DNA from: Pedobacter metabolipauper
GTDB taxonomy: Bacteria > Bacteroidota > Bacteroidia > Sphingobacteriales > Sphingobacteriaceae
Assembly (NCBI RefSeq): GCF_004362715.1
Contig: NZ_SNYC01000008.1
Location: forward strand, 159,044-223,043
DNA: 64,000 nt
Direction: 5' to 3'
A model generated the notes under the pieces. The model was not told the DNA's origin. It worked only from the letters and a program-made list of their open reading frames with translations, and did no database searches. Positions 47,178-62,757 of this stretch are shown here, piece after piece. Both the position numbers and the translations under genes were made by a program. Numbering within the stretch: position 1 is the stretch's first letter; each line of letters begins with the position of its first letter.

Positions 47178-48653
47178 ATGATTAAAAAATCAGGTGCCCT
47201 TGTAATCGTCGTTTCAATCGTTGCTGTTTGTTTAAGTTTTGAAAATGCAACGCACATTGTTCCTTCTAAAAAGACGGCTGGCCATTCTAAAAACTCAGCA
47301 GAAAACACCACACTTTTGGCAGATGCAGCGGTTAATTATAAAAATTACTGTGCAGGTTGCCATGGTGAAAAGATGGATATGTTTGTAGACCGTAACTGGA
47401 AACACGGCAATAAGAAGGAAGATCTTTTTAAGACCATTAAGTTTGGGGTCGCGAATGATGGTATGCCTTCATTTGGAGAGAGCCTGAGTGATGCCGCGGT
47501 AAATGCACTTGCAGATTATATCTTAACCGGAATAAAAAATGTAGCTAAGTATACAGCGAAAGAGAGACCAACATCAGACGTGTTTAAAACACAGGCCATG
47601 ACCATTAAACTGGAAATGGTAGCCAAAGGTTTCAACGTGCCCTGGGGTATTGCCTTTTTGCCAGGCGGCGAGATGCTGGTTACGGATCGGGGCGGTAAAT
47701 TTTACCTGGTAAAAAAAGACCAGAGTTTGGTTGAGGTCAGCGGTGCGCCACAAGTGCTGGCTAAAGGGCAGGGAGGCTTGATGGATGTGGCACTTGATCC
47801 TGACTTTGCCACCAATAGATACATCTACCTTTCCTATTCTAAATTTAAGGAAGGAGGGGGAGCGGTGCTGGCTACTACCGCCATTATGAAAGCCAAATTT
47901 GAAGGGAACCAGCTTACCGAACAGAAAGATATTTTTGTTGCTGAACCTTATCAGCCAACACAGCATCATTACGGCTCAAGAATGCAGTTTGGCAAAGATG
48001 GTTACTTGTACTTTTCTGTTGGCGAACGGGGTAATGAGAGGGTGAACCCGCAAGAGATTAAAGGAAACGATCTCGGTAAGATCCACCGGATTAAGCGCGA
48101 TGGAAGCATTCCGGCTGATAATCCTTTTGTGAAAACAGCAGGAGCTGAAGCATCTATTTATTCTTACGGCCACCGTAATCCGCAGGGACTAACAATGAAT
48201 CCTGAAACGGGTAAGATCTGGGAAAATGAGCATGGTCCAAGAGGCGGCGATGAGATCAACATTGTTGAGCCCGGTAAAAACTACGGCTGGCCGGTTATTA
48301 CCTATGGTATAAATTACAATGGAAAGCCAATGAGTAACCTTACTGCAAAGGCAGGTATGGAGCAGCCGGTCCATTACTGGATCCCGTCTATTGGGCCTAG
48401 CGGACTGGCCTTTGTAACGGGAACTAAATATAAAGGATGGGAAGGTAATTTACTTTCTGGTTCTTTACGGTTTGAGTTTCTTCAAAGAACAGTGCTAAAA
48501 GCAAGTAAGGTTGTTAAAGAAGAGCTGATGTTTAAAAATATAGGCCGGGTAAGGGATGTAAGAATGGCACCTGATGGCTTCATTTACATGGCTGTAGAAT
48601 CTCCTGGAAGAATTTATAAGCTGGTTCCCATTACTGAAAATATGCGAAATTAG
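47178..48653 (+). CDS. Cytochrome c-fused PQQ-dependent sugar dehydrogenase (GSDH type)
   Basis: 491 residues: signal peptide (about 1-20), a class I cytochrome c domain (about 48-118; heme site CAGCH with Cys58, Cys61, His62 and axial Met in DGMPSF), then a six-bladed soluble aldose dehydrogenase propeller (about 133-485) with VPWGIAFLPGGEMLVTDRGG, HHYGSRMQFGKDGYL, YGHRNPQGL and NEHGPRGGDEIN, the usual quinone/calcium pocket residues. The fusion would let the heme take electrons from PQQH2 directly. Substrate unknown. PQQ synthesis genes are not in the window. It is divergent from the ebo operon. Confidence 0.92.
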   Translation: MIKKSGALVIVVSIVAVCLSFENATHIVPSKKTAGHSKNSAENTTLLADAAVNYKNYCAGCHGEKMDMFVDRNWKHGNKKEDLFKTIKFGVANDGMPSFGESLSDAAVNALADYILTGIKNVAKYTAKERPTSDVFKTQAMTIKLEMVAKGFNVPWGIAFLPGGEMLVTDRGGKFYLVKKDQSLVEVSGAPQVLAKGQGGLMDVALDPDFATNRYIYLSYSKFKEGGGAVLATTAIMKAKFEGNQLTEQKDIFVAEPYQPTQHHYGSRMQFGKDGYLYFSVGERGNERVNPQEIKGNDLGKIHRIKRDGSIPADNPFVKTAGAEASIYSYGHRNPQGLTMNPETGKIWENEHGPRGGDEINIVEPGKNYGWPVITYGINYNGKPMSNLTAKAGMEQPVHYWIPSIGPSGLAFVTGTKYKGWEGNLLSGSLRFEFLQRTVLKASKVVKEELMFKNIGRVRDVRMAPDGFIYMAVESPGRIYKLVPITENMRN

Positions 48654-48782
48654 AATGTTACATCAATTTTTTTATCAATTCAAAACTATTTAGTATCATT
48701 ACTTTCTCATAGGGAGAATTTACTTTTGCCGTTTATAGAGCTGAGATTATGATGATTATTGCGCACGCGTTAAGGGCTTTAA

Positions 48783-50126
48783 ATGGCTAAGATTGATTAC
48801 TATAATTTATTTGAGCTCTCACCATTGCCCATGTGGGTTTTTGATGTGGGTACCCTTCAGTTTCTTTCCGTTAACCTTGCAGCCATCAGGCAGTATGGCT
48901 TTAACATGGGAGAATTCTTATCCATGACCATAAATGACATCAGGCCTTCTGAAGATGCGGCCTTAATTGAGGCAATTGTTGAGAAAAATGCGATTAACGG
49001 CGGCCTTCATAAAGATACTTATACGCATATTAAAAAAAGTGGTGAATACATTACGGTAAACATAGAAAGCAGTCCTGTTGATTTTGAAGGCCGTAATGCC
49101 CGGCTGGTCATTGCCATAGATATTACCGAGCAAATTCAGAATGAGGTTCAGATCAGGGACAGCATAGAACGGTACAATATTGTTTCAAAGGCAACAAGTG
49201 ATACCATTTGGGATATGTCCCTAACTGCCAATACCATTGTCTGGAACAAAGGGATCAGGGGCATTTTTAAACATAAAAAGGTAGACACTACAACAAGTAT
49301 CGCATGGTGGGAAGATCACATCCATCCGGAGGACAGGGAACGGGTATTGTCAAAAATGGCCCATCACATTAAAGACCATATTTCCAGATGGAGCGATGAA
49401 TACCGCTTTGTTTGTGGAGATGGTACTTATAAACATGTGTTTGACCGCGGTTTTCTCATGTTTGATTCCAATGGTAAACCCTACCGGATGATTGGCGCAA
49501 TGGAGGACATTACCAAGCGTAAAGACGAAGAACATTGGTCAAAATTACTGGAGTCTGTGGTAATTAATACCAGCGACGGCGTATTGATCATCAATTCAGA
49601 CCGTGATCCCGGACCATTCATCATCTATGTAAATGATGCTTTCATTAAAATGAGCGGTTTTTCTGAAGCCGAGTTGCTTGGCTCAGAAACGAATGTCTTT
49701 TTTGGTGGCGATACCAGCCAAATAGGCCTTCAGCAAATGAACTATGCCGTTCAAAATGGACTTGCATGTAATATAGATCTTATAAATTATACAAAATCAG
49801 GCCATGAATACCATGTCAATATAGATCTTTCCCCGGTAACTGACAGTACCGGCATGATCAGCCATTGGGTATCGATACACCGGGATATCACAGAGAACAA
49901 AAAGTATATCAAGGCCATAGAAGAACAGAATAAAACACTCAAAGAAATTGGCTGGATGCAGTCACATACCGTAAGGGCACCGCTTACAAGAATCATGGCA
50001 CTGGTAGATTTGCTTCAGAATCAGGCTGAAGGTGATGATTCACAAGAACTGTTAACCTATTTGTCAAGTTCTGCAAAAGAACTGGATGGCATTATCATAG
50101 ACATCGCTAAAAATACCAGTATCTAG
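48783..50126 (+). CDS. Triple-PAS sensor protein with histidine-kinase H-box but no ATPase domain
   Basis: 447 residues with no membrane helix: PAS domains at about 3-115, 120-245 (PAC end GAMEDITKRK) and 255-380 (PAC end SIHRDITENK), followed by a DHp-like helix whose H-box is MQSHTVRAPLTRIMALVDLL (His395). Only 52 residues follow the histidine, so the ATPase domain is missing; the stop is clean, with no kinase sequence beyond it in any frame up to the next gene. It may act as a phospho-acceptor, a dimeric sensor or a decoy. A TACTTTTG box at 48721-48728 could be its -7 element. Confidence 0.85.
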   Translation: MAKIDYYNLFELSPLPMWVFDVGTLQFLSVNLAAIRQYGFNMGEFLSMTINDIRPSEDAALIEAIVEKNAINGGLHKDTYTHIKKSGEYITVNIESSPVDFEGRNARLVIAIDITEQIQNEVQIRDSIERYNIVSKATSDTIWDMSLTANTIVWNKGIRGIFKHKKVDTTTSIAWWEDHIHPEDRERVLSKMAHHIKDHISRWSDEYRFVCGDGTYKHVFDRGFLMFDSNGKPYRMIGAMEDITKRKDEEHWSKLLESVVINTSDGVLIINSDRDPGPFIIYVNDAFIKMSGFSEAELLGSETNVFFGGDTSQIGLQQMNYAVQNGLACNIDLINYTKSGHEYHVNIDLSPVTDSTGMISHWVSIHRDITENKKYIKAIEEQNKTLKEIGWMQSHTVRAPLTRIMALVDLLQNQAEGDDSQELLTYLSSSAKELDGIIIDIAKNTSI

Positions 50127-50200
50127 TATCCTCAACGGGCTGATAAACAATCTCGCAGCAGCGTTGTTGTTATTAAATCAGCACGATTAGCAGCATACAT

Positions 50201-50431
50201 ATGGAACAGTTTAGAATCGAAGTAGCCAGTGAAGGCCAGGGCTATTTTTTTAATGTGAAGCCAATTGGTGGTCACCGTTACGAAATTTATAAAGAAGAAG
50301 ATAAAATTGGAACCATACAGCTGGATGGTCAGGATCATGAGCATTGTACAACGATTGATTGCAAGGTTGATCTTCCCTTATTAAATGCAATACGGGAAGG
50401 GATCCTGACACATGAAAGCAGTCCATTGTAG
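50201..50431 (+). CDS. Small cytoplasmic protein, function unknown
   Basis: 76 residues, no signal peptide or membrane segment, predominantly beta in the first half (RIEVASEGQGYFFNVKPIGGHRYEIYKEEDKIGTI), helical at the end (PLLNAIREGIL). No family recognised. It lies between two PAS-domain genes, all on the plus strand, 74 bases from the first and 52 from the second, so it may belong to a shared signalling group. Confidence 0.68.
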   Translation: MEQFRIEVASEGQGYFFNVKPIGGHRYEIYKEEDKIGTIQLDGQDHEHCTTIDCKVDLPLLNAIREGILTHESSPL

Positions 50432-50483
50432 ATCAGTTGTTACATTTGATTTGGTCAAATTTTGTTACCTTTAGTAAAGAGAT

Positions 50484-51140
50484 ATGGAAAATTACCTGAA
50501 TTTATTTCATAATGCCCCAATTGCAACTTCTATTTTGAAGGCTGAAGGTTTCAACGTAGAAATGGCCAATCCCGAGATGTTAAATTTGTGGAGACGGGAT
50601 AAAACGGCCATCGGATTAAATTTGTTGGAAGTAATGCCCGAGATAGTTGGTCAGCCTTATGTAGAACTGATCCGAAGCGTGTTTAAAACCGGGCAGCCCC
50701 ATACAGAAACTGGTGCAAAGGTTTTGCTTAATAGTAATGGTAAGATGGAAACCATATTTATGGACTACAGTTATACGCCTATTTTTGGCAAAATGCAGCG
50801 GCCTACCGCTCTTTTAATTATGGGTACCGATATTTCTGAAAGAGAGATCAACAAGCAGGCCATTCAGCAGTCAGACCGGAACCTGCGAAATTTGATCATG
50901 TCCTCTCCGGTACCCATGTGTGTATTTAGGGGAGAAAATCTAAGAATAGATGCCGTAAATGACAGCATGATGGAATTGTGGCTTAGCCAGAGGATGTTGA
51001 GAATAAAAGAGGTACGTCATGTTTTAAATACCGGAGTTACCTACAAAGCACAGATTGATAAGATTGACTATACCTTTGCCCCAATAAGAGATGGACTTGG
51101 AAAGGTGTCTGGTATTGTGGTAACAGGAAGCAAGGCCTGA
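50484..51140 (+). CDS. PAS-domain protein without output domain
   Basis: 218 residues: a complete PAS domain (about 1-120, NLFHNAPIATSILKAEGFNVEMANPEML, PAC end LIMGTDISERE) and a second, shortened one (about 125-218, MSSPVPMCVFRGENLRIDAVNDSMMELW ... FAPIRDGLGKVSGIVVTGS). No kinase, GGDEF or DNA-binding domain is present. It resembles the sensor half of a Bacteroidota hybrid kinase and may work with the H-box protein upstream. No signal peptide; cytoplasmic. Confidence 0.78.
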   Translation: MENYLNLFHNAPIATSILKAEGFNVEMANPEMLNLWRRDKTAIGLNLLEVMPEIVGQPYVELIRSVFKTGQPHTETGAKVLLNSNGKMETIFMDYSYTPIFGKMQRPTALLIMGTDISEREINKQAIQQSDRNLRNLIMSSPVPMCVFRGENLRIDAVNDSMMELWLSQRMLRIKEVRHVLNTGVTYKAQIDKIDYTFAPIRDGLGKVSGIVVTGSKA

Positions 51141-51245
51141 TTAATGGAATAATAATTTCATGTTAAATCATGGATAAGTAAACCAGCCATAGCATATTCA
51201 ACTGATTAAAAGGGTATTTTTACAACCAATATATCCACATCGCAT

Positions 51246-51509
51246 ATGCAGCAAATTATCATAACAAGTATCGGATGGCTTGGCGTAGCCCTATGCACCC
51301 TGGGCTACTTACTGTTAACCATGAGAAAGATCGATGCAGAATCTTTAAGCTTTCAGCTGCTCAACATTATTGGCGGTCTTTGCCTGGTTGCTACTGCAGT
51401 TGATAGTAACGACATTCCAAATGCGGCTGCAAATATACTATGGATGTTTATTGGTGTGTATGCAGTTGCACGTCAATCAAGAACCCGCAATGCCGGTGGT
51501 AAGCGCTAA
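51246..51509 (+). CDS. CBU_0592-family small membrane protein
   Basis: 87 residues with three predicted membrane helices (about 5-24, 33-51 and 58-75); the block IGWLGVALCTLGYLLLTMRKIDAESLSFQLLNIIGG and the end IPNAAANILWMFIGVYAV fit the CBU_0592 family, which has no known function. Its last 33 bases overlap the 3' end of the convergent TetR gene. Confidence 0.78.
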   Translation: MQQIIITSIGWLGVALCTLGYLLLTMRKIDAESLSFQLLNIIGGLCLVATAVDSNDIPNAAANILWMFIGVYAVARQSRTRNAGGKR

Positions 51510-52103
51510 TGCTTTAATGCCCAAAATCTGATAAGCCTGGTCTTTATAAAAATCCAACCGCTCTCCATATGCTTTATTGTCACTTTCCAGGGATAAATAA
51601 AAATAAGCACCATCTACCAGCACAAAGATAAAGTCGGCAGTAGTTTGCGGATCTTTAACCTCAGTTATGTGCTTCACATTACATTGTTCAATCATGGAAG
51701 CCAGCGCAAGGCGAAGAGAATCCAGTATGGCCTTATATTTTACTTTGATCTTTTTTTCCCGAAAGGCCAATGCATAGAACGTATAAAAAAGACCATCGTC
51801 AAAAAGCAGGTTCCACTTTTTAGAGAAAAGCATCTCAACTGTTTTCTGAAGATCGGAGAGGGTAACCCCATCCTTATTTTTTATGGTATAGATCAGCAGG
51901 TACCGCTCCAGTATATAGTCAATCAGCGCATAGGTTAAGTCTTCTCTAGTCTCAAAGTAATGAATAATTAAACTGGGGTTAATATCCATAACCTTCGCGA
52001 TTTTAGCGATTGATGTATTTTCGTAACCTTCTTTTTTAGCAACCTTATAAAATACTTTAACGATCTCTTGCTGCCTTACTTCTTTTAGACTTTTTCTGCC
52101 CAT
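51477..52103 (-). CDS. TetR/AcrR-family transcriptional regulator
   Basis: 208 residues from ATG 52103 (the frame is open ten codons further but typical members start at MGRKS). The DNA-binding domain (about 8-58) contains NTSIAKIAKVMDINPSLIIHYFETREDL, a standard TetR helix-turn-helix. The ligand domain has no recognisable specificity. The gene is divergent from the SusC/SusD operon, and two palindromes lie in the shared control region, suggesting that it represses itself and perhaps that operon. Confidence 0.92.
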   Translation of the reverse strand: MGRKSLKEVRQQEIVKVFYKVAKKEGYENTSIAKIAKVMDINPSLIIHYFETREDLTYALIDYILERYLLIYTIKNKDGVTLSDLQKTVEMLFSKKWNLLFDDGLFYTFYALAFREKKIKVKYKAILDSLRLALASMIEQCNVKHITEVKDPQTTADFIFVLVDGAYFYLSLESDNKAYGERLDFYKDQAYQILGIKALALTTGIAGS

Positions 52104-52149
52104 TGTTAAATTCTGAGGCGCCAAACTACTCAAAAAAAATCAATTTGCA

Positions 52150-52187
52150 ATTCTGAATTATCAGAATAGATTGAATGTACGTTCAAT
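52150..52187. promoter_or_regulatory. Two palindromes, candidate TetR operator
   Basis: ATTGAATGTACGTTCAAT (52170-52187) is an 18-bp palindrome with a single mismatched pair and the TGTACG/CGTNCA-like core seen in many TetR-family operators. Directly left of it, ATTCTGA and TCAGAAT (52150-52156, 52161-52167) form a perfect 7-bp inverted repeat with a 4-bp gap. Both lie between the tetR start (52103) and the susC start (52288). Confidence 0.6.
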
Positions 52188-52287
52188 TAATCTTTTAATT
52201 TGATCTTAACTTGGTGTTAATATTATAAGGAGACTTTAGCCCCGTCAAAAAGTATTTCTAAATCAAATTTTAATATTAACAATCATT

Positions 52288-55200
52288 ATGAAAAAAAAGC
52301 TACTCTTATGGATGTTCTGTATGGTACTGCTCAGCACCGGCAGCATCGCGCAAACCGTTACCGTAACCGGTAAGGTGCTGGATGCTGAAACCAATGGGCC
52401 GGTACCATCTGTAACCATCAACGTAAAGGGCACTACGTTTCGCACCGCTACCGATGCAAATGGTACCTATACATTTACCAACATCAGTTCAAAAGCAATC
52501 CTGGTATTTTCCTATATCGGTTACAAGCAGGAAGAAGTTGCTGTTGATGGAAAAACAGTGGTCAATGTAAGCCTGGCTTCTGACTATGGAAAACTGGACG
52601 AGGTTGTTGTGGTTGGTTTTGGAACCAAGAAAAAGATCAACATTGCGGGTGCAATTGACCAGATCTCAGGTGATCAGCTCAAATCAAGACCAATTGCCAA
52701 TGTGCTGCAGGGATTACAGGGAATTAGCCCCGGATTAAACATCACCTATGGTGGCGGACAGCCTGGAGCTGTACCTACAATTAACATCAGGGGGTATACT
52801 TCAATTAACGGAGGATCGCCGCTTGTGGTTATTGATGGAATTCCAGCAACAAGTACGGATGATATGCTGCGGTTAAACCCGTCAGATATTTCTTCGTTCA
52901 CGGTATTGAGAGACGCGGCATCTGCAGCGATCTATGGTGCAAGAGCTGCATTTGGTGTAATTTTAATCACTACCAAACAAGGAACGGCAGGTACACAGAC
53001 CATCACTTACAATACATTTACCTCTTTTGGCAAGCCAACGGTATTGCCTAAGCCGGTTACCGATCCTTACATCTATTCAAGGGTATTGGAAACCTCTACA
53101 GACAATACCCCATGGGATTATGTAAATTATTCAGATGAGCATTATCGCTGGGCAAAAGAAAGATCTGAAAATCCTTCTATTGCTGATACACGAATAGACC
53201 CTACAGATCCAACCAAATGGGCATATATGGGAAGTAATGACTGGTATAAATATTTCTTTAATGATGCCAGCCAATCTGTAAGCCATGCCTTATCACTTTC
53301 AGGTGGGGTAAATGTAAACAATACACCAGTTACCTATTATCTGTCTGCAGATTATGCAAAAGATAATGGCCTTAATAAATTAACAGATGATTACTGGGAT
53401 CGCTACGGTCTGCGTTCAAGAGTTGGTTTTAATCCGTTAAGCTGGCTTAGGGTAGATAATAACTTAAATATCTATGAAACCAAAAGAGCCCTGCCAAATA
53501 CCAGTATTACAGATCTGTATTACCTGCAGCCAACTGATGTTGCTCAAAATCCAGACGGTACATGGGCAAATACAGCTGCCGGAAGGTTAGCAGCAAGACT
53601 GGTTGATGGCGGCAATAACAGCCAGAACATGTTTGGTTTCCATAATATAACCAGTGCAACTGCAACTGCTTTAAAAGGTGACCTGACCATTAATGGTGAT
53701 GCATCATTTAAAAGAGAATTGTGGAAAACACATGTGGATTCTAAAAAGTTCTCTATCGGTTTTGGTCCGAATGATGTGCGTCAGGAAGGCGGAAACGGGT
53801 ATGTAAGAGAAAATAATGGCTACCTGTACAATAACGCCTATAACTTCTATACCAACTATAAAAAGACACTTGGTGATCACTATTTTGGTGCTACCCTTGG
53901 TTATAACCAGGAAGATTATACTTACTCAACCGTAAATGCACAAAGAGATGTTTTGATCTCTTCTTCATTACCTTATTTAAGCTTAACCAGCGGAACTGCA
54001 ACCGCAAGTGCAGCATACAGTGCGTATGCAACCAAAAGTGTATTCAGCAGGTTAAACTATACCTTTAAAGAGAAGTATATATTAGAAGCAACCGGCAGAT
54101 ATGATGGTTCATCCCGTTTCCCTACTGCTAAAAGATGGGGATTCTTCCCGTCTGCCTCTGCAGCATGGATTGTAAGTTCAGAGCAATTTATGGAGCCCGT
54201 ATCTAATGTACTTTCTACCTTTAAACTTCGTACTTCTTATGGTGACCTTGGTAACCAGAATGTGGGCGATTTTAACTACCTGCAAACCCTGCCAACCGGA
54301 TTGTCAAGTTATTTGATCAACGGTGCGCAGCAACAAGTAATTACCAATTCACCACAGTTAACCATTAATCCTCAGAATTATACCTGGGAGCGTGTTTCTA
54401 CGCTGAATGCAGGTACTGATATCGGGCTATTAAAAGATAAGTTCCTAATCACATTTGATTACTTTATCCGCGATACCAAAGGAATGCTGGTAGCAGGCCA
54501 GGAATTGCCAGGTGTATTGGGTACTTCTGTACCAAGACAGAATGCGGCAGACCTAAGAACAAAAGGATGGGAGCTTTCTGTAACCTATCGTGACCGCTTT
54601 GATGTGGGCTCTAAACCATTCAATTTTGATGCGAAATTGTTTATCTCAGATTCCCGTTCAAAGATTACCAGCTTTAAAAATGATCAGAACCTGTTTTCAA
54701 GCTATCGTGTAGGTCAGGACATCGGAGAGATCTGGGGACTGGAGAACGACGGTGTTTTTAGAAACCAGGCCGAGATCGATGCACTTGATGAATCTGCAAT
54801 CATACCATGGGGAGCCCTGGAGATTGTGGAAGGATGGCCAAAATATAAAGACCTTGACGGCAATAAGAAAATTGAAAGAGGTTTAAGTGCTAATGATCCA
54901 AAAGATCTTAAGATCATTGGAAATAGTTCAGACCGGTATTCTGTAGGTGCTAACCTGAATATGAACTGGGGTGGTTTTGATGTCTCCATGTTCCTTCAGG
55001 GTGTATTGAAAAAAGATTTCTACCCACACCACTATTTGTTCTGGGGTCCTTATCAGCAGCCATATGCTAATATCTATCCATGGAACCTTGATTTTTATCG
55101 CGGTGCTGCAGATTCTCCGGAACAAATGGCAAAACACTCTGCCTCTTATATTGCAGCAGGACTGGCCAATGCCAACCCGGATTCTGAATACCCGGTACTA

Positions 55201-55497
55201 CAATCATGGCTTGCAGATGCCAATTACGGAACTGGTTTGGACATTCCTCAAACTAAGTACCTGTTAAACGGTGCCTATTTAAGGGTTAAGAATATCGCCG
55301 TTGGTTATACCCTGCCAGCAAAATTAACCAAGCGTGTTAACATTAGCCGCTTAAGGATATTCGTTTCCGGAGAGAATCTGTATGAATTCTCATCCATCAA
55401 GAAATATGTTGATCCGGAAGCCATTAATCAAAGTACAAGTGCCTGGGCATACCCGTATCAACGGAGATATGCGGTTGGTTTAAATCTTGATTTTTAA
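52288..55497 (+). CDS. SusC/RagA-family TonB-linked outer-membrane protein
   Basis: 1069 residues: signal peptide (ending SIAQ, about 22), a carboxypeptidase-regulatory-like domain (about 25-105, VTVTGKVLDAETNGPVPSV), the SusC-typical KLDEVVVVGFGTKKK stretch, a plug domain (about 120-235, NIRGYTSINGG, DISSFTVLRDAASAAIYGARA) and a C-terminal barrel ending in LNLDF with terminal Phe. These proteins import ligands captured by SusD using TonB energy. The substrate cannot be told from sequence. It is followed after 34 bases by susD. Confidence 0.96.
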   Translation: MKKKLLLWMFCMVLLSTGSIAQTVTVTGKVLDAETNGPVPSVTINVKGTTFRTATDANGTYTFTNISSKAILVFSYIGYKQEEVAVDGKTVVNVSLASDYGKLDEVVVVGFGTKKKINIAGAIDQISGDQLKSRPIANVLQGLQGISPGLNITYGGGQPGAVPTINIRGYTSINGGSPLVVIDGIPATSTDDMLRLNPSDISSFTVLRDAASAAIYGARAAFGVILITTKQGTAGTQTITYNTFTSFGKPTVLPKPVTDPYIYSRVLETSTDNTPWDYVNYSDEHYRWAKERSENPSIADTRIDPTDPTKWAYMGSNDWYKYFFNDASQSVSHALSLSGGVNVNNTPVTYYLSADYAKDNGLNKLTDDYWDRYGLRSRVGFNPLSWLRVDNNLNIYETKRALPNTSITDLYYLQPTDVAQNPDGTWANTAAGRLAARLVDGGNNSQNMFGFHNITSATATALKGDLTINGDASFKRELWKTHVDSKKFSIGFGPNDVRQEGGNGYVRENNGYLYNNAYNFYTNYKKTLGDHYFGATLGYNQEDYTYSTVNAQRDVLISSSLPYLSLTSGTATASAAYSAYATKSVFSRLNYTFKEKYILEATGRYDGSSRFPTAKRWGFFPSASAAWIVSSEQFMEPVSNVLSTFKLRTSYGDLGNQNVGDFNYLQTLPTGLSSYLINGAQQQVITNSPQLTINPQNYTWERVSTLNAGTDIGLLKDKFLITFDYFIRDTKGMLVAGQELPGVLGTSVPRQNAADLRTKGWELSVTYRDRFDVGSKPFNFDAKLFISDSRSKITSFKNDQNLFSSYRVGQDIGEIWGLENDGVFRNQAEIDALDESAIIPWGALEIVEGWPKYKDLDGNKKIERGLSANDPKDLKIIGNSSDRYSVGANLNMNWGGFDVSMFLQGVLKKDFYPHHYLFWGPYQQPYANIYPWNLDFYRGAADSPEQMAKHSASYIAAGLANANPDSEYPVLQSWLADANYGTGLDIPQTKYLLNGAYLRVKNIAVGYTLPAKLTKRVNISRLRIFVSGENLYEFSSIKKYVDPEAINQSTSAWAYPYQRRYAVGLNLDF

Positions 55498-55531
55498 CAT
55501 TTAGGGTATCACAAGTATTAAAAAATTAGCC

Positions 55532-57322
55532 ATGAAGAAGAGCATATATATCGCATTCGCACTACTAGCCGTTACATTTACGGCCTGTAAAAAAGGAGAC
55601 CTGGACCGGTTTCCCCAAACCTCCATTGCACCCGAACTATTTTTCAATTCTGAAGAAGACCTCATTTTGTATGTAAATGGATTGTTGTCATTGCCAGACA
55701 GAAATACCTACCTGAACGATCAGAGTAGTGATAACGTAGCAACAACCGCTGCCGTTGAAGTAAAAAATGTGATGGCCGGTAATACCAATGCCCAAAACAT
55801 TACTTCGGGATGGAGCTGGACCCGCTTAAGGAACATCAACTATTTCCTGGAAAACTATAAAAAAGCCAAAGTAAGCAACGATGTAAAAAACCACTATGCC
55901 GGATTGGCAAGATATTACCGTGCAGAATTTTATATGGAGAAAGTAAAACGGTTCTCTGATGTACCATGGTATTCCGGAACCTTAAATCCAGAAGATGCGC
56001 AGTTATTTAAACCTAGCGATCCAAGGGCTTTAGTAGTAGACAGTATCATGGCCGATCTTGACTTTGCCTATAAGAATGTGAGAGAAAGTGTGCCTACAGG
56101 AACTCCCGGAAAATGGGCTGCGGCTACATTGTATGCCAGGGTTGCACTTTATGAGGGAACATACCGTAAATATCATTCGGAACTAAACCTTGCCAGCTCA
56201 GCAAATGCATTTCTTCAGACAGCTGCCAGGGTAGCCGGAGAGATCATCTCTTCTAAAAAGTTTACCATATACAATACGGCAAAGCCTGCACAGGATTATG
56301 CGGCCTTATTTTCCAGTCAGGATCTAACCAGCAATACAGAAGTTATATTGGTTAACGTATTCGATCTTAATAAAAGCAAAAGCCAGAATGTAAATTCAGT
56401 TGTATTTGGTGATTATGAGCAGGCTCCTGCAAGAGACCTGATCCAAACCTACCTGATGAAAGACGGAAGCCGCTTTACCGATCAGCCGAATTACAATCAG
56501 CTTGGTTTTGTTAAGGAGTTTGAAAATCGCGATCCAAGGTTGTCTCAGACCATGGTTTATCCGGGATGGGTTCGTGTGCCTGATGCACAGCCGTACATTC
56601 AGCGTTTAAATAAAAACTTTACAGGTTATCACCAGATCAAGGGATATGTAAACAGTACAGACAACGTAACCTTAAACAGTGTTGATTTTCCAGTTTACCG
56701 GTATGCAGAAGCGTTACTGATCTATTCAGAGGCAATTGCCGAACTGGGTACATTGACGCAGCAAAACCTGGATGAATCATTAAACCTGCTTAGAAGAAGA
56801 GCTGGCCTGCCAGACCTTAATTTGGCACAGGCAACTGCGGCACCAGACCAATTGCTATTACAGCAGTTTAGCAACGTTACCGCAAATGCAGGTGTGATTA
56901 TGGAGATCCGCAGGGAGCGCAGGGTTGAGTTTGCATTTGAAAATTCAAGATATGATGACCTGATGCGCTGGAAGGCTGGAAAGTTGCTGGCTAAAAGTCC
57001 GGAAGGAATGTACTTTGCCGGATTGGGTAAATACGATATGACCGGTGATGGGATTGAGGATATTGCCTTGATAGACCGTACACAAACCATTCCTGCAGAA
57101 GCTCAAAAAGAAAAAAATTCATTGGGCGTTACCCTGGTTTACTATCGTACAGGTGCAATTGGTACAGATGCTACAGTATTCTTAAAAAATGGAACCGCAG
57201 GCGGGGCAATTGTAACAGAAGCAGTAACCCGTAATTTTGAAGAACCTAAATATTATTATCGTCCAATTCCGCAACAACAGGTAATTTTGAATCCAAACCT
57301 GAAACAAGTATTTGGCTGGTAA
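55532..57322 (+). CDS. SusD/RagB-family nutrient-binding lipoprotein
   Basis: 596 residues; lipobox with Cys19 (FTACKK), then the helical TPR-bearing SusD fold: FPQTSIAPELFFNSEEDLILYVNG near the start, YRAEFYMEKVKRFSDVPWY, and near the end RRAGLPDLN and IRRERRVEFAFENSRYDDLMRWK, which are hallmark SusD blocks. It forms the lid over the SusC barrel. It ends 15 bases before the phosphodiesterase gene, so the three form one operon. Confidence 0.96.
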   Translation: MKKSIYIAFALLAVTFTACKKGDLDRFPQTSIAPELFFNSEEDLILYVNGLLSLPDRNTYLNDQSSDNVATTAAVEVKNVMAGNTNAQNITSGWSWTRLRNINYFLENYKKAKVSNDVKNHYAGLARYYRAEFYMEKVKRFSDVPWYSGTLNPEDAQLFKPSDPRALVVDSIMADLDFAYKNVRESVPTGTPGKWAAATLYARVALYEGTYRKYHSELNLASSANAFLQTAARVAGEIISSKKFTIYNTAKPAQDYAALFSSQDLTSNTEVILVNVFDLNKSKSQNVNSVVFGDYEQAPARDLIQTYLMKDGSRFTDQPNYNQLGFVKEFENRDPRLSQTMVYPGWVRVPDAQPYIQRLNKNFTGYHQIKGYVNSTDNVTLNSVDFPVYRYAEALLIYSEAIAELGTLTQQNLDESLNLLRRRAGLPDLNLAQATAAPDQLLLQQFSNVTANAGVIMEIRRERRVEFAFENSRYDDLMRWKAGKLLAKSPEGMYFAGLGKYDMTGDGIEDIALIDRTQTIPAEAQKEKNSLGVTLVYYRTGAIGTDATVFLKNGTAGGAIVTEAVTRNFEEPKYYYRPIPQQQVILNPNLKQVFGW

Positions 57323-57337
57323 TTAAAATTAATTTCG

Positions 57338-58564
57338 ATGTATAAAAATATAGCACTTTTTGCAATGATGGTCTTAGCCCATCATTGCTTTGCCCAGAAA
57401 ACAAAGAAAACAGTCTATGTAATCGCAGATGGGATCTCTGCAGACAAGATTGAGAATATGGACCTGCCAAACATCAACAGGATCATTAAAGCAGGTAGTT
57501 ATACCCGTATGTATGTAGGTGGCGGCAAAGGTACTTATAGCCAAACCCCAACCATCTCTGCAGTTGGTTACAACAGCTTACTTACCGGAACCTGGGTAAA
57601 TAAGCATAATGTTCCTGACAATGACATCAAGGCTCCTAATTACAAGTATCAAAATATCTTCAGGTTATTAAAAGATCAGTATCCGCAAAAAAAGACGGCT
57701 ATCTTTTCCAGCTGGCTGGATAACCGCACCAAACTGCTTGGCCATAATTTACCTGAAGCAGGCAACCTAAAGGTTGATCAATATTTTGATGGTTACGAAT
57801 TGGATACGGTAAACTTTAAGCACGATAAAAAGCGTGATTTTATGAACCGAATCGATGAAAAGGTGGTTGAAGAAGCAAGTAATACCATTAAGAAAGATGC
57901 ACCAGACCTGTCATGGGTTTACCTGGAATACACTGATGATATGGGCCACATGTATGGTGACAGTCCGCAATTTGACGAAGCGATAAAAAAACTGGATGTA
58001 CAGCTTGGAAAAATCTATGATGCCATTGCCTACCGGGAAAAAAACTTCAATGAGGAGTGGCTGTTGATGGTGACTACAGATCATGGCCGTGACGAGAAAA
58101 CCGGTAAGGGTCATGGCGGACAATCAGACCGTCAGCGTTCTACCTGGATGGTATCTAATTACAATCAGCTAAACACCTATTCTAAGGTTTATAATCCAGG
58201 GATTGTAGACATTATGCCTTCTATAGCACGGTTTATGAACATTAATATCCCTGCAGAAGTAAGACAGGAAATTGATGGCACCCCTTTAATTGGTCCGATC
58301 TCCATTGCAGAGGTAAAAGCCAATTTTGTTCATGGCAGCATGGATCTTAGCTGGAAATCATTGGAAGAAAAAGGCAACGTTAAAATATGGTTAACCACAA
58401 CCAATAACTTTAAAACTGGAGGTAAAGACAATTATGTATTGGTAGCTGAAGTTCCGGTAAGTAAGCGGCATGCATTTATAAATCTGGAAAAATACCCTGC
58501 TGAGTTTTATAAGATGGTGTTGGAAGCACCAAATAATACAACAAATATCTGGGTAACCCCATAA
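57338..58564 (+). CDS. Secreted alkaline phosphatase-superfamily phosphodiesterase
   Basis: 408 residues with a signal peptide (ending CFAQ, about 20). The type I phosphodiesterase/nucleotide pyrophosphatase core (about 25-320) begins KTVYVIADGISADKI, has the probable nucleophile threonine in SQTPTISAVGYNSLLTGT, and later metal ligands in LEYTDDMGHMYG and VTTDHGRDEKTGKGHGG. A C-terminal beta-rich part (about 325-408) has no assigned family. It probably releases phosphate or a phospho-moiety at the surface or in the periplasm for the SusC/D system. Third gene of that operon. Confidence 0.88.
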   Translation: MYKNIALFAMMVLAHHCFAQKTKKTVYVIADGISADKIENMDLPNINRIIKAGSYTRMYVGGGKGTYSQTPTISAVGYNSLLTGTWVNKHNVPDNDIKAPNYKYQNIFRLLKDQYPQKKTAIFSSWLDNRTKLLGHNLPEAGNLKVDQYFDGYELDTVNFKHDKKRDFMNRIDEKVVEEASNTIKKDAPDLSWVYLEYTDDMGHMYGDSPQFDEAIKKLDVQLGKIYDAIAYREKNFNEEWLLMVTTDHGRDEKTGKGHGGQSDRQRSTWMVSNYNQLNTYSKVYNPGIVDIMPSIARFMNINIPAEVRQEIDGTPLIGPISIAEVKANFVHGSMDLSWKSLEEKGNVKIWLTTTNNFKTGGKDNYVLVAEVPVSKRHAFINLEKYPAEFYKMVLEAPNNTTNIWVTP

Positions 58565-58586
58565 AGCGGTAAATCCTTTGTTGGTT

Positions 58587-58640
58587 AAAACCTGCATCGT
58601 TCATGCTCCTGCTCAAAGGGTATAGATGGTGCAGGTTTTT
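58587..58640. terminator. Candidate bidirectional terminator
   Basis: AAAACCTGCA (58587-58596) pairs perfectly with TGCAGGTTTT (58630-58639); the 33-base loop can pair further near the stem (CATC with GATG). It lies between the convergent ends of the phosphodiesterase and S41 peptidase genes, with A and T runs suited to both directions. Confidence 0.6.
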
Positions 58641-58657
58641 AGTTTAAAAGGCAGGGG

Positions 58658-59953
58658 TTATGGCTTTAACTTTTGCCGGTGCTCAATTAATCCTAAGGTT
58701 TTGACCGGATCCTGACCTGTAGCAATTAACCCGGTGTTTTGATTTACTGCACTTATTTTCTTATCTGCCGTTGGCGTGCTGGTCATGGTAACTGGTATTC
58801 CGTTAATTAAATCGAGTACTTTACTTAAGCAGCCCTCGTTTGGGTCTCCGAGGGTAGGATTGCTTTCGCCTTTAACAAAAACATCTGGTGTTATCCCATC
58901 AAAATAATCAGCTTTCCCTTGTGCATTAAGAATTAGAAAGCTGGGTAAATAAACGCTGTATTTATCAATATTGATCCCGAAAAAACCCACTGGCTTGCCA
59001 TAGGTTTTCTCTCCAATCAACCTGACATTGAAGTAGGGTTTAAGGCTGTTGATGAGCAGCTCGCTGGCAGAGGCAGTTTTTGGAGAAACAATAAAGTAGA
59101 TGTTTTTAATTGTTTCCAGGTTCCCTTTTTTATTAAATTTAAACGTGTTGCCCGCCTCTGTATAATCTACATCGGCCATGGTGGTATTTCTTCCTTTATA
59201 AATTATCGGTTTGCCGGCATTGTCAAGATAGGGCTGGTATTTTAATATGGTTGCCTTTCCACCTTGCATTAATGCATTAAACTGCTCGGTAAACATTACC
59301 TTTCCGGTTAATGCAGATGGGGCGGTCAAGTCGGCTATGTATTCTGCAGTCTCCACATAACCACCGGCATTAGACCGGAGGTCAATAATCAGGTTCTGGG
59401 GACTGGCTGCTGCAAATTCTGAAAAGACCCTATCCAGATCAGGTTTAACGGTACTTAGTAAAGGAAAGGAACCAAGGGCGATATATGCCGCAGAATTGGC
59501 TCCGGGATTAACCATTAAACTTTTAAGGATAACAGAACCAGTTGCAGGGCCGGCTTCGGCGCTGCTGCCGGGTATACTCCTGCCGGTCAGCAAATTGGAG
59601 TATTTTGGGTTCCCTGCGGTTACCGGAAGTTCAAAAGGCAGGCCCGTAGCGGTATTTAGCTTTAGCTGCGAAATATCGAACAGTTCTTTCTTGAACGCGG
59701 ATAGATCTGAGGCCATCCCGTCATATTTAACCCGCGGATTAAATGTGTTGTAATCTGGAAGGACCTCATTCCACAAGTAAATTTGCCGGGCATACAGAAA
59801 AATAGAATCCAGGGTAAACTGCATGCGGGTACCTGTAGCTGGCGAAATAACAGGATCGGTATCATCAGATATATGTGCATCTTTTTTACAGGAACCAAGG
59901 GCGCCTATCATAAGAATGCTGATGATCAGTTGATATATATTCCGGTTATTCAT
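58658..59953 (-). CDS. S41-family (tail-specific protease-like) lipoprotein peptidase
   Basis: 431 residues from ATG 59953 (three codons after an open TTG). Lipobox MIGALGSCKK. After an N-terminal helical part (about 45-80) comes the S41 core: LIDLRSNAGGYVETAEYIADL (oxyanion/structural block) and FIVSPKTASASELLINSLKPY with the nucleophile serine, and further on VRLIGEKTYGKPVGF (lysine region). No convincing PDZ domain is seen, so it is the short Bacteroidota C-terminal-processing-peptidase form. Substrate unknown. It is the last gene of a run of four lipoprotein genes. Confidence 0.85.
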   Translation of the reverse strand: MNNRNIYQLIISILMIGALGSCKKDAHISDDTDPVISPATGTRMQFTLDSIFLYARQIYLWNEVLPDYNTFNPRVKYDGMASDLSAFKKELFDISQLKLNTATGLPFELPVTAGNPKYSNLLTGRSIPGSSAEAGPATGSVILKSLMVNPGANSAAYIALGSFPLLSTVKPDLDRVFSEFAAASPQNLIIDLRSNAGGYVETAEYIADLTAPSALTGKVMFTEQFNALMQGGKATILKYQPYLDNAGKPIIYKGRNTTMADVDYTEAGNTFKFNKKGNLETIKNIYFIVSPKTASASELLINSLKPYFNVRLIGEKTYGKPVGFFGINIDKYSVYLPSFLILNAQGKADYFDGITPDVFVKGESNPTLGDPNEGCLSKVLDLINGIPVTMTSTPTADKKISAVNQNTGLIATGQDPVKTLGLIEHRQKLKP

Positions 59954-59972
59954 GTAGTACAACGAATGTTTA

Positions 59973-60938
59973 TTAATCTGTTATAGTTATTGGGGCAGTT
60001 GCATGGTACCATTGTCCCAGCACTGTATTATTCGAATTAAAAAATTGCATGGAGTTGCTGGAGGTTATTGGGAAAACAGATGGGATCGTCACAGAAATGG
60101 CTGTGCTGGTTTGCTGCACATTGGTAATGGTAATAGAATTGGTAAACGAACCAGGGTAATATATTTTTACGTAGCTAACCGGATTATATTTACCAATTAC
60201 AGGATTAACCGGAATGGTTAACACATTTCCTCTTTTAACTATAGTGCCGGCAGGAATGGTTACTTTAAGCGCAGGTTTTGCAACATGATACGGCCCCCTG
60301 GTTACCTGCCGCAACCCGGTAACCAATTTAAAACTATAATATCCGGTATCAATGGCACTGGTTATGGCTATTGGAAGCTGGATTTGTGAATGCGTGAACA
60401 ATAAAAAAGTTGAGCCGTAAAGCTGAATTTCTTTTTTATCCTTGTCAACTAAGTATAACCTGGTTTTGGTTGTATCTGTAATGATATTTTCTCCGGTTAA
60501 AGCCATCGTTTCTCCAATAGTTATACCGGTATTATTGATTATTTCAAAAGCCGGTAATGGCTGATTGATGGAAGGGGATAAGATATATTTTTTAACGCTT
60601 CCGTCTTGCGCGGTAACGGTGTATACTGTAGTTTCATTAAATGCTACTTTTTTCCCGCTTTCCGGACTTATTTTGGCGCGGTCGGATACTAATATATTGG
60701 GAGTAATAGAGTCTGGAATAGTTTGTAAGGGCGGCCAGTAAATAATGATCTTGTCATCTATAATACTTGCTTTTATTTCTGCCTTAGCATTGTCTGCAAT
60801 GACAAATTTTTCAATGGAGTTGTATGGGAAATCAACGTATTCTTTTTTACAGGATACAATAAAAGACACTGTGAATAACAGTATTAGGCTGGTAAAAATG
60901 CGGGTCAATGAAATTCTTTTTAAGGTTAGACGAAACAT
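59973..60938 (-). CDS. Ig-like surface lipoprotein, paralogue of the 61804-62757 gene
   Basis: 321 residues with lipobox VSCKKEY (Cys near residue 30). First domain (about 35-130) ends in the motif TVYTVTAQDGSVKKYIL, as in cadherin-like/DUF5018-type modules, a second (about 135-225) looks IPT/TIG-like (NNTGITIGETMALTGENI), and a third (about 230-321) is beta-rich. The same order is seen in the 317-residue protein encoded upstream. Likely an extracellular binding lipoprotein; ligand unknown. It follows a hairpin after the 189-residue lipoprotein gene and precedes the S41 gene. Confidence 0.75.
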   Translation of the reverse strand: MFRLTLKRISLTRIFTSLILLFTVSFIVSCKKEYVDFPYNSIEKFVIADNAKAEIKASIIDDKIIIYWPPLQTIPDSITPNILVSDRAKISPESGKKVAFNETTVYTVTAQDGSVKKYILSPSINQPLPAFEIINNTGITIGETMALTGENIITDTTKTRLYLVDKDKKEIQLYGSTFLLFTHSQIQLPIAITSAIDTGYYSFKLVTGLRQVTRGPYHVAKPALKVTIPAGTIVKRGNVLTIPVNPVIGKYNPVSYVKIYYPGSFTNSITITNVQQTSTAISVTIPSVFPITSSNSMQFFNSNNTVLGQWYHATAPITITD

Positions 60939-60966
60939 GAATATATAATTTTATAAAATTAAATAA

Positions 60967-60998
60967 GGTACGGACCGGGTTGTAGCCTGATCCGTACC
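60967..60998 (-). terminator. Hairpin, candidate terminator on the minus strand
   Basis: GGTACGGA (60967-60974) and TCCGTACC (60991-60998) form a perfect 8-bp stem with a 16-base loop. On the minus strand the stem is followed by TTATTTAATTTT. It lies after the 189-residue lipoprotein gene and before the 321-residue one. Confidence 0.5.
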
Positions 60999-61027
60999 CT
61001 GGAATAGATCCTTTTAAATATTAGGAT

Positions 61028-61597
61028 TTAATTAACGACACCGTATTCTACATCGATGATCGCGCGGTCGAGAGCTCCACTTTGTTGAGGTGTAACATCC
61101 ACTACTTTAATGACATAGGTTACTAAGGTTAAAGGATTAGTAATGAAAATATATACATAATCAATAATGGTGATACCTCCTGGTGGAATGTAGTCATACC
61201 ATCCGTTTGGTGTACCACCGCCCGTATTGTAACCAACGCCAGCAGCAGAAGCTGTAGTTGCCAGGGCATACTGCGCTGTTCCAATGCTTGCCGTGCTGGA
61301 AATGGTAGTGTATAGATATTTTACGGTATATCCTGCAGGAGCAGTAATGTATGAATTATCCCTGTTGGTAAACAATGCCGTATCACCTGCTGCCAATGGT
61401 AATTTAATGGTGCCATAAGATACTGATCCAGAACCCCAGTTACCAGTAATGGTAGCGGTATTTACAGGGCTTACTACTGCTTTCGCATTGTTTAAACTTA
61501 GAGGTTCGTCTCCATTTTCCTTTTTGCAGGAAGAAGCGAATAAAACAAGGGCAAATAAGCCTACAGCTAATTTAGAGATATGATTTTTTGAATTCAT
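61028..61597 (-). CDS. Small surface lipoprotein, unknown family
   Basis: 189 residues, lipobox FASSCKK with Cys24. The mature part is beta-rich, poor in charge, rich in Thr, Ser, Gly, Tyr, and contains a glycine-proline segment (GGGTPNGWYDYIPPGG); it looks like a single jelly-roll or Ig-like domain. No family recognised. It lies between the two Ig-like paralogues and is bounded by hairpins on both sides, so it may be expressed differently from them. Confidence 0.68.
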   Translation of the reverse strand: MNSKNHISKLAVGLFALVLFASSCKKENGDEPLSLNNAKAVVSPVNTATITGNWGSGSVSYGTIKLPLAAGDTALFTNRDNSYITAPAGYTVKYLYTTISSTASIGTAQYALATTASAAGVGYNTGGGTPNGWYDYIPPGGITIIDYVYIFITNPLTLVTYVIKVVDVTPQQSGALDRAIIDVEYGVVN

Positions 61598-61666
61598 GAT
61601 TTTTAATTTAAATTATTGTTTAAGTCAACTAATTACAGTGCCTCTTATGAGATCACTGCCGCCTCT

Positions 61667-61794
61667 TTCGGGTAATTCTCGAATTACCGGCCGAAGCATT
61701 TTCTGAGAAGGTGTTAATTGTTCGTTTTAGTACCATAGGCATTCTTTAGGGTGATTAATGGTTAATTTAGCACCCGTTCCTGCGCATGAACGGG
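61667..61794 (-). terminator. Two hairpins between lipoprotein genes
   Basis: CCCGTTC (61773-61779) and GAACGGG (61788-61794) form a perfect 7-bp stem 10 bases after the stop of the 317-residue lipoprotein gene; the T-run on the minus strand is weak. Farther on, GGTAATT (61671-61677) and AATTACC (61682-61688) close a CTCG tetraloop, extended by TTC/GAA at the base (61667-61695). They may terminate or attenuate the transcript before the 189-residue gene. Confidence 0.45.
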
Positions 61795-61803
61795 AAACTT
61801 TCT

Positions 61804-62757
61804 TTATTTAGCGGTAACAGTAAGGTTCCCGCTTTTAGTGAGTGTGGTCCAGCCCTCAAATTCAAATTTGAAAGGGATTTGCCAAACTCCAATAGGGAAG
61901 TCGTCAGGAATTCTAAGTTCTAATGAGAGGGGCGAATAAGTAACAACAGGCAATTCATACACGACAGTGTTTACCGTAACGCTTACCTTTTTTACATTGA
62001 TGAATATGCTGTTAAATGGTACATATATAATACTGCCCCCTTGTTTAGCGGCTTGTGTGGGCATCAATAGATTGGGTTGTCTATGTCTGATGCGGAGTAC
62101 CTCTGGCAGATCCATCTTTGTACCCAGCGTATTGATTGATACAGTATAAGATCCGGTATCCAGGGTTGCAGGCAAAGGCATATTAATTAAAGCATAGTTG
62201 AGCGTTTCTGCCCTGATTGCCGTGCTCGCGTTTAATACCAGGGTGGTTGCTTTTTTAGATACCCGTTCTGACACAACTACTTCTACCAATGCAGGATTTC
62301 TTTGCATGAAATCCCCCAGCATTATTGGTAAAACTGCACCTGGATAGGCTATTGGATTTGCGGTGTTCCAACGGAAGCTAAGGTTCGTCGGGTTTTGCTG
62401 AATAAGTTTAAGGGTATAGATCTTTTTACTCCCATCGTTCCCGGTTACACCGTATGTTTTCGTATCTGTTACGTTAACCGGTAAGATTTCTTCATCAAGT
62501 TTAGACCCTGAGGCGACTGTAATTTCGGGATCAATTATAGATAGGCCGTAATAGTAAGGTAGATAGACAGTTATTGTACCTTCAAGATCATCAACGGCTC
62601 CATAGATCACAGTATCGGGTATGTTGGTTACTTTATAAGTTAATATTTTAGCTTGAGGTAATGGTTCTAAATCAATGGTCTTTTTGCAGGATGCTAAAAC
62701 CATAAAGGTTATTGGAATTAAAAGTAAGGGGGTAATTTGTTTGTAGAGTAATTTCAT
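61804..62757 (-). CDS. Ig-like surface lipoprotein, paralogue of the 59973-60938 gene
   Basis: 317 residues with lipobox VLASCKK, Cys24. First domain ends in KTYGVTGNDGSKKIYTLKL, the same cadherin-like/DUF5018-type motif as in the paralogue; the middle domain (about 140-220, GAVLPIMLGDFMQRNPALVEV) corresponds to its IPT-like part, and the last ends in SGNLTVTAK. First gene of the minus-strand lipoprotein run. Function unknown, probably extracellular ligand binding. Confidence 0.75.
   Translation of the reverse strand: MKLLYKQITPLLLIPITFMVLASCKKTIDLEPLPQAKILTYKVTNIPDTVIYGAVDDLEGTITVYLPYYYGLSIIDPEITVASGSKLDEEILPVNVTDTKTYGVTGNDGSKKIYTLKLIQQNPTNLSFRWNTANPIAYPGAVLPIMLGDFMQRNPALVEVVVSERVSKKATTLVLNASTAIRAETLNYALINMPLPATLDTGSYTVSINTLGTKMDLPEVLRIRHRQPNLLMPTQAAKQGGSIIYVPFNSIFINVKKVSVTVNTVVYELPVVTYSPLSLELRIPDDFPIGVWQIPFKFEFEGWTTLTKSGNLTVTAK

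Follow-up and report, generated by a model that had tools for sequence, protein, structure and literature searches.

A SusC-SusD operon with an exported PF01663 enzyme in Pedobacter metabolipauper: a probable uptake module for organic phosphorus esters

SusC-SusD pairs are usually read as sugar importers, and an operon in which such a pair is followed by a single predicted phosphoesterase raises the question of what the pair carries. Such an operon lies in a 64,000-nucleotide stretch of the genome of Pedobacter metabolipauper (assembly GCF_004362715.1, contig NZ_SNYC01000008.1, positions 159,044 to 223,043), referred to here as the window; the genome comprises 5.25 Mb in 11 contigs. The original prediction, made from the letters of the window, described a SusC-SusD-phosphodiesterase operon with no glycosidase and proposed that the ligand might be a phosphorylated or phosphodiester compound such as a teichoic-acid fragment, phosphoglycan, inositol phosphate or nucleotide sugar; our results favor none of these four over the others. 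Our analysis of the operon and its relatives leads us to hold, with good confidence, that the pair imports a phosphorus ester and not a plain glycan. We also consider it probable that the module serves the ligand-switched uptake of a small organic phosphorus ester across the outer membrane and its hydrolysis.

The gene content of the operon was borne out. Open reading frames (ORFs) for the three proteins were found exactly where they had been predicted (Table 1), on one strand and separated by gaps of 34 bp (SusC-SusD) and 15 bp (SusD-enzyme), and the products matched their families. The SusC-type protein scored 779.5 bits against TIGR04056 (cut-off 368.25) and contains the Plug and CarbopepD_reg_2 domains of Pfam. 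The SusD-type protein scored 165.2 bits against SusD_RagB and has a lipobox-like N-terminus (...FTACKK, by eye), and the enzyme scored 71.6 bits against PF01663 (cut-off 23) and begins with what appears by eye to be a Sec-type signal peptide without a lipobox. Pfam analysis of nine proteins, the three of the operon and six flanking ones (47178-62757; two ORFs at 48783-51140 lay outside the scan), found no glycosidase, and no glycoside hydrolase, lyase or similar enzyme of the kind that marks a polysaccharide utilization locus (PUL). Within the proteins scanned, the operon is thus free of glycosidases, as had been claimed, and is not a PUL by its carbohydrate enzymes. Scans for sigma-70 promoters and terminators did not rise above shuffled sequence (10 compared to a mean of 19.2, and 7 compared to 6.3, respectively).

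The association of the enzyme with SusD extends to other genomes. A search of genome contigs found 523 relatives of the enzyme, and the best 80, a sample biased toward close relatives, were analyzed by BLAST classification of mechanically called ORFs (loci L038, L087, L107, L109, and L115 are truncated by contig ends). In 52 of the 80 the co-directional run of genes immediately upstream of the enzyme gene includes a SusD-type gene, an association beyond chance. The SusD partners come from at least two families, SusD_RagB as in the window and SusD-like_2 as in L023; a third type, approximately 32-35% identical to the second, is found in those phosphonate-linked loci, described below, whose SusD was shown. 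A TetR gene like that of the window lies nearby in 24 of the 80 loci, 20 with the window type of SusD and four with the other type. ECF- or FecR-like genes (ECF, extracytoplasmic function sigma factor) lie upstream in 24 of the 80 at a 30% cut, with matches at 27-30% in L085, L108, and L117, and both were confirmed by Pfam in one example per transporter type (L041 and L096). In a quick tree of the enzymes, which has many weak forks, the window enzyme groups with that of L039, outside a 21-row and mostly Pedobacter clade. We do not claim that the enzyme was swapped in from an ECF-type operon; an approximately unbiased test did not reject holding it with the clade (p 0.31).

The divergent TetR-family repressor gives the operon a probable switch of its own. 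The protein scored 154 bits against TetR_C_37 and 28.1 bits against TetR_N (cut-off 24); its resemblance to BetI is weak (48 bits against a cut-off of 118) and only a hint. The ORF list starts the gene at a TTG at 52133, and the start conserved in the relatives (MGRKSLKE) corresponds to the ATG at 52103. A site like GATTGAATGWAYGTTCAATT is present in the gap between TetR and SusC in the window and in all 24 of the TetR-type relatives, weakly in L074. For 24 of these 25 gaps, mononucleotide shuffles equaled the score of the site in 0 or 1 of 200 trials; in L074, whose TetR is only 41% identical, 21 of 200 did so. The site in the window has 1 mismatch to the consensus and is the sole exact match to the pattern in the 5.25-Mb genome. 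When 145 genomes of the genus were scanned without regard to proteins, 62 exact sites were found in 54 genomes. Thirty of them were fetched as loci, and 18 of these, counting that of the window, are situated between TetR and SusC. The predicted operator is a sequence that can be tested directly.

Calling the PF01663 protein the operon's only enzyme holds for the three genes themselves but is incomplete. A probable second enzyme, like the regulator, is encoded outside the three-gene interval. The second enzyme is a calcineurin-like phosphoesterase (hereafter MPE), assigned by Pfam on examples, with a twin-arginine N-terminus by eye. Among the TetR loci, its gene separates the SusD and PF01663 genes in 18 of 20 that have the window type of SusD and in one of the four that have the other type; across the 80 relatives, it occurs in the upstream run in 23. 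No trace of MPE was found in the 15-bp SusD-enzyme gap of the window. The P. metabolipauper genome encodes an MPE at G000:C7:152340-153236 that shares 81% identity with the copy in the L024 operon, and a second homologue (43% identical) on contig C4. A scan of this genome that allowed at most one mismatch yielded four distinct operator-like sites, in the window, on C3, on C1, and approximately 117 bp upstream of the MPE gene on C7. By rough arithmetic of our own, performed post hoc, the chance that one of three stray sites falls within 300 bp upstream of that MPE gene is 2e-4. We read the MPE as a member of the operon that may have moved away yet stayed under the same TetR through the predicted site, which would make the split gene an attractive example of a regulon that has outlasted its operon. 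The presence of MPE in the operon in 19 of the 24 TetR-type relatives, together with the operator-like site upstream of the P. metabolipauper gene, strengthens the case for a phosphorus-ester ligand.

The form of SusC tracks the type of regulator. We compared 48 SusC proteins that were longer than 900 aa and had over 50% identity to either of two queries; split and more distant ones were left out. The 23 proteins encoded beside TetR are 1063-1099 aa in length. The other 25 have ECF/FecR-like genes upstream, and 24 of these measure 1137-1180 aa; only L049, with 1085 aa, falls outside this range. By Pfam, the SusC of L096 contains an STN domain and that of L041 has a FecR_C match just below threshold at the same place. 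Neither was found in the TetR-type SusC proteins of L063, L050, and the window, and no STN domain was found in the SusC of L049, which is an ECF-type locus. The length difference is present in both SusC families, so a change in the type of switch seems to have gone hand in hand with one in the SusC N-terminus. The switches that recur are local, being either a TetR and its conserved site or ECF sigma/FecR together with a longer SusC. This suggests induction by the ligand or its product, and nothing observed at the locus or its relatives supports control by phosphate limitation.

The enzyme itself has weak sequence matches to solved structures, these being ENPP5, iPGM, snake venom phosphodiesterase, and ENPP1. 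An AlphaFold model built with 25 homologues (pLDDT 87.9, pTM 0.88) was compared to known structures by VIA-align, which gave tied Z-scores of approximately 24-25 for iPGM, SPAP, PafA, the Xac nucleotide pyrophosphatase/phosphodiesterase (NPP), and ENPP1/7, with root-mean-square deviations of 2.8-3.4 over 254-278 aligned residues and identities of about 17-22%. The model thus places the enzyme in the alkaline phosphatase superfamily, with the subfamily not decided by fold; like NPP-type enzymes, it combines this predicted fold with a match to PF01663. Eleven residues are invariant in 25 of 25 enzyme sequences (D31, T72, S74, N95, R130, K132, D200, H204, D248, H249, and H259), and their roles, which we take from NPP alignments and from general knowledge of the superfamily, are presumed to include metal binding by D31, D200, H204, D248, H249, and H259. 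S74 is probably the nucleophile, with T72 as the alternative: S74 aligns with the nucleophilic threonine of NPP in 5veo (titled as a T72A mutant) and in snake venom phosphodiesterase in one alignment set, and also in 5vem and 5ven in a second set. The enzyme shares its fold and presumed metal-ligand positions with the NPPs (XacNPP, ENPP5-7) and with PafA/SPAP, and differs from them in being only about 17-22% identical, in the probable serine nucleophile, and in being short with a strand-rich C-terminal region (approximately residues 320-408). The label of phosphodiesterase in the original prediction agrees with the PF01663 family. The name of that family leaves a preference for diesters or monoesters unsettled, because two PafA homologues of Chitinophaga pinensis, PafA being a phosphomonoesterase type, also carry pfam01663 according to the report on PafA (PMC8812569). 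Among other proteins matching the enzyme are three large ones of 567-578 aa. Two of them (L158:579-2282 and L160:583-2286) have by eye apparently lost metal-ligand motifs (SDGG for DHGG) and are possible pseudoenzymes; the third (L159:504-2240) retains the motifs.

Phosphonate-degradation-type genes near the enzyme in some relatives are a further point in favor of a phosphorus-ester ligand. A TIGR03364-like gene was found within eight ORFs of the enzyme gene in eight of the 80 relatives. In seven Mucilaginibacter loci (L081, L091, L092, L100, L102, L106, and L114) the enzyme lies near both TIGR03276- and TIGR03364-like genes, and four of the seven also have a predicted TIGR03351-like gene; L115 has TIGR03364- and TIGR03351-like genes, and L065 has only a PhnX-like gene. 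These families were checked against NCBIfam in three loci (L081, L102, and L115). TIGR03364 exceeded its cut-off of 285.1 where tried (424.8 in L102, 354.3 in L115), TIGR03276 (cut-off 214.6) passed in L081 (225.2) and fell narrowly below in L102 (210.2), and TIGR03351 was below its cut-off of 218.9 in all three (183-200). The run in L081 consists of an HD-domain gene, SusC, and SusD, with the PF01663 enzyme directly after. The product may in some relatives be an aminoethylphosphonate-type compound. In the P. metabolipauper genome there was no match to TIGR03276 and none to TIGR03364 above its cut-off, TIGR03351 and PhnW/PhnX not having been searched for there. Phosphonate catabolism is unsupported as a role in this genome, and on these results we do not propose phosphonate use by this route for the strain. 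The same Mucilaginibacter clusters (L081:1-10209 and the six other loci) also contain an HD oxygenase, a FAD oxidoreductase, in some cases a PhnX-like gene, and, by eye, MFS-like and XRE-like genes, with a SusCD pair of the third type where SusC and SusD were shown.

From these observations we propose a working scheme. The divergent TetR would bind the near-palindrome between tetR and susC and repress both genes until the ligand or its product is present, as the conserved site and the gene arrangement suggest. SusD and SusC would capture the ligand for TonB-driven import, consistent with what is known of their families. Following Sec-type export, the PF01663 enzyme would cleave the ester in the periplasm at a two-metal site, with S74 as the probable nucleophile; this step draws on the predicted fold, on residues placed by alignment, and on a signal recognized by eye. 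The twin-arginine MPE, encoded elsewhere behind an operator-like site, would then carry out a second hydrolysis, for example of a monoester to phosphate. As to the substrate, lipid-headgroup-type esters such as glycerophosphodiesters are a tentative guess, and headgroup glycerophosphodiesters are named first because phosphonate analogues of them exist and their cleavage would supply the MPE with a monoester. Should the ligand prove to be a lipid-headgroup or phosphonate ester, the module would partly close the gap in our understanding of organic phosphorus entry across the outer membrane of soil Bacteroidota. A bolder idea, which we think very unlikely, is that the family is a SusCD-coupled esterase group for zwitterionic headgroup esters, aminoethylphosphonate-type esters included, in which Pedobacter would pass a monoester to the Tat-exported phosphatase, Mucilaginibacter would pass a phosphonate to TIGR03276/TIGR03351/TIGR03364-type enzymes, and the distantly BetI-like TetR would sense an amino-alcohol; if true, it would provide an outer-membrane import route for phosphonate esters. 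The family is in any case a compact comparative example of SusCD combined with phosphoester chemistry, with exchangeable regulators and transporters.

The closest known system is the phosphate utilization system (PUS) of Flavobacterium, in which phosphomonoesterases, phosphodiesterases, and phosphonate-degrading enzymes are reported beside PusCD pairs; PUSI of Flavobacterium johnsoniae encodes a pair of predicted periplasmic diesterases, of which one is given under pf00149 (PMC8115612). This paper was the only close one among the matches listed when the literature was searched for TetR-controlled SusCD, for SusCD with phosphonates or glycerophosphodiesters, and for SusD with phosphodiesterase and anti-sigma factor, subscription papers lying mostly outside the search. 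As in the PUS of F. johnsoniae and relatives, the module joins SusC and SusD to one or two phosphoesterases predicted to be exported, and among the nine proteins scanned a co-localized predicted phosphoesterase takes the place of carbohydrate enzymes. The module looks like a variant of a known phosphorus-scavenging kind, not a sugar-eating one. It differs from the described PUS in that the enzyme belongs to PF01663, the regulator is a divergently encoded TetR that has a conserved site to itself, and the MPE gene lies outside the operon. This sharing of part types would fit a strict PUS, that is, a phosphate-starvation scavenging locus of the PHO regulon for which low phosphate, and not the ligand, would be the main signal. 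We consider this unlikely and do not file the locus as a PUS in the strict sense, because the recurring regulators are TetR or ECF sigma/FecR, the SusC N-terminus tracks them, and the conserved TetR site suggests a signal other than phosphate depletion. As a separate observation, Pedobacter frigidisoli has what appears to be a PUS-type cluster (L044:13434-19216) a few kb from its PF01663 module. On a single strand it contains genes resembling those for MPE, PhoA, and SusD, together with three other ORFs, one of them similar by eye to an endonuclease/exonuclease/phosphatase.

A glycan-uptake locus, in which the enzyme would only trim phosphate, phosphoethanolamine or the like off an oligosaccharide after its import and leave the degradation to enzymes encoded at other loci, appears rather improbable to us. 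SusCD pairs typically carry glycans, and the nearest solved structure to the window SusD, BF1063, was deposited as a SusD-like carbohydrate-binding protein. As in PULs, a SusCD pair is present, and some relatives combine a longer SusC N-terminus with regulation by ECF sigma/FecR. The window differs from PULs in its TetR regulator and in the lack of a glycosidase among the proteins scanned, and the largest clusters of otherwise unassigned neighbors in the 80 loci were ECF-like (35 members) and FecR-like (34 members), in a survey that included no family-level search for glycosidases. Somewhat doubtful is the possibility that the enzyme is a PafA-type phosphomonoesterase and the imported ligand a phosphomonoester such as a sugar phosphate. 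PafA and SPAP rank structurally alongside NPP, the 21-residue spacing of S74 and N95 is that of what we take to be T79 and N100 in PafA, and the basic pair R130/K132 is conserved throughout the 25 sequences, PafA presumably contacting the phosphoryl group with the pair K162/R164. The best sequence matches, however, are NPP-family proteins and iPGM, ahead of PafA, and a second phosphoesterase alongside the enzyme in many relatives suggests a division of labor.

Several observations weigh against the uptake and hydrolysis of a phosphorus ester under TetR control as the function of the operon. The upstream run contains no SusD in 28 of the 80 relatives (four of them cut by contig ends). A broken relative in L028 (44% identical) lies a few kb from GH30 and carboxylesterase genes, as would suit glycan uptake, and also lies with MPE and PhoA-type genes; similarly, the enzyme in L048 is followed on its 3' side by sugar dehydrogenase-, sugar transporter-, and amino-sugar catabolism-like genes (by eye) and then SusC (L048:10385-18719). 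The operator consensus was drawn from the same TetR-SusC gaps in which the sites were then counted, the backward pattern used as control for the genus scan gave 23 sites compared to 62, and 12 of the 30 fetched sites adjoin no TetR-SusC pair and may reflect chance or other regulators. In the P. metabolipauper genome, the C3 site lies inside a 208-aa ORF, the C1 site inside a 108-aa TTG ORF of doubtful reality, and the backward pattern matched once, so one-mismatch matches do arise by chance. The site upstream of the MPE gene is self-complementary at 12 of 20 positions compared to 16 of 20 in the window, with most conserved positions kept. The MPE is also dispensable: 24 of the 25 SusD2-type loci have none in the run, and the SusD-enzyme gap of L067 retains only a 26-residue C-terminal remnant of MPE (69% identical; L067:8855-8977), a deletion scar unlike the clean gap of the window. 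The genome of L067 (G170) otherwise has only a distant MPE homologue, and no other close MPE copy was found in the genomes of L067, L063, and L042. For the enzyme, one pairwise alignment (5ven in the first set) places T72 rather than S74 at the nucleophile position. Foldseek puts sulfatases first for the model, so the predicted fold alone is no proof of a phosphoester substrate; we do not take this ranking as an indication of function.

Table 1. Coordinates of the operon genes, the divergent regulator, and the predicted operator within the window.
Feature	Position	Strand	Basis
SusC-type TonB-dependent outer-membrane transporter, 1069 aa	52288..55497	+	ORF list, Pfam, NCBIfam TIGR04056
SusD-type surface lipoprotein, 596 aa	55532..57322	+	ORF list, Pfam SusD_RagB, structure match
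Exported alkaline-phosphatase-superfamily phosphoesterase (PF01663), 408 aa	57338..58564	+	ORF list, Pfam, predicted model, alignments
TetR-family repressor (TetR_N + TetR_C_37), divergent from susC	51477..52103	-	Pfam; conserved partner and start in relatives
Probable TetR operator GATTGAATGTACGTTCAATT, 20-bp near-palindrome	52169..52188		16/20 self-complementary; TetR-SusC gap; predicted

On the 3' side of the operon the neighbor of the enzyme gene is an S41 peptidase gene on the opposite strand (58658-59962), the first of a minus-strand series (58658-62757) that continues with three lipoprotein-like genes, one having a sub-threshold match to DUF5018 and two having no Pfam matches. Beyond the divergent TetR, and among the six flanking proteins, is a glucose/sorbosone dehydrogenase-type (GSDH) gene at 47178-48653. 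The P. metabolipauper genome as a whole gave 53 matches to SusD_RagB, two of which are split pieces of others, corresponding to approximately 51 SusD genes in 5.25 Mb.

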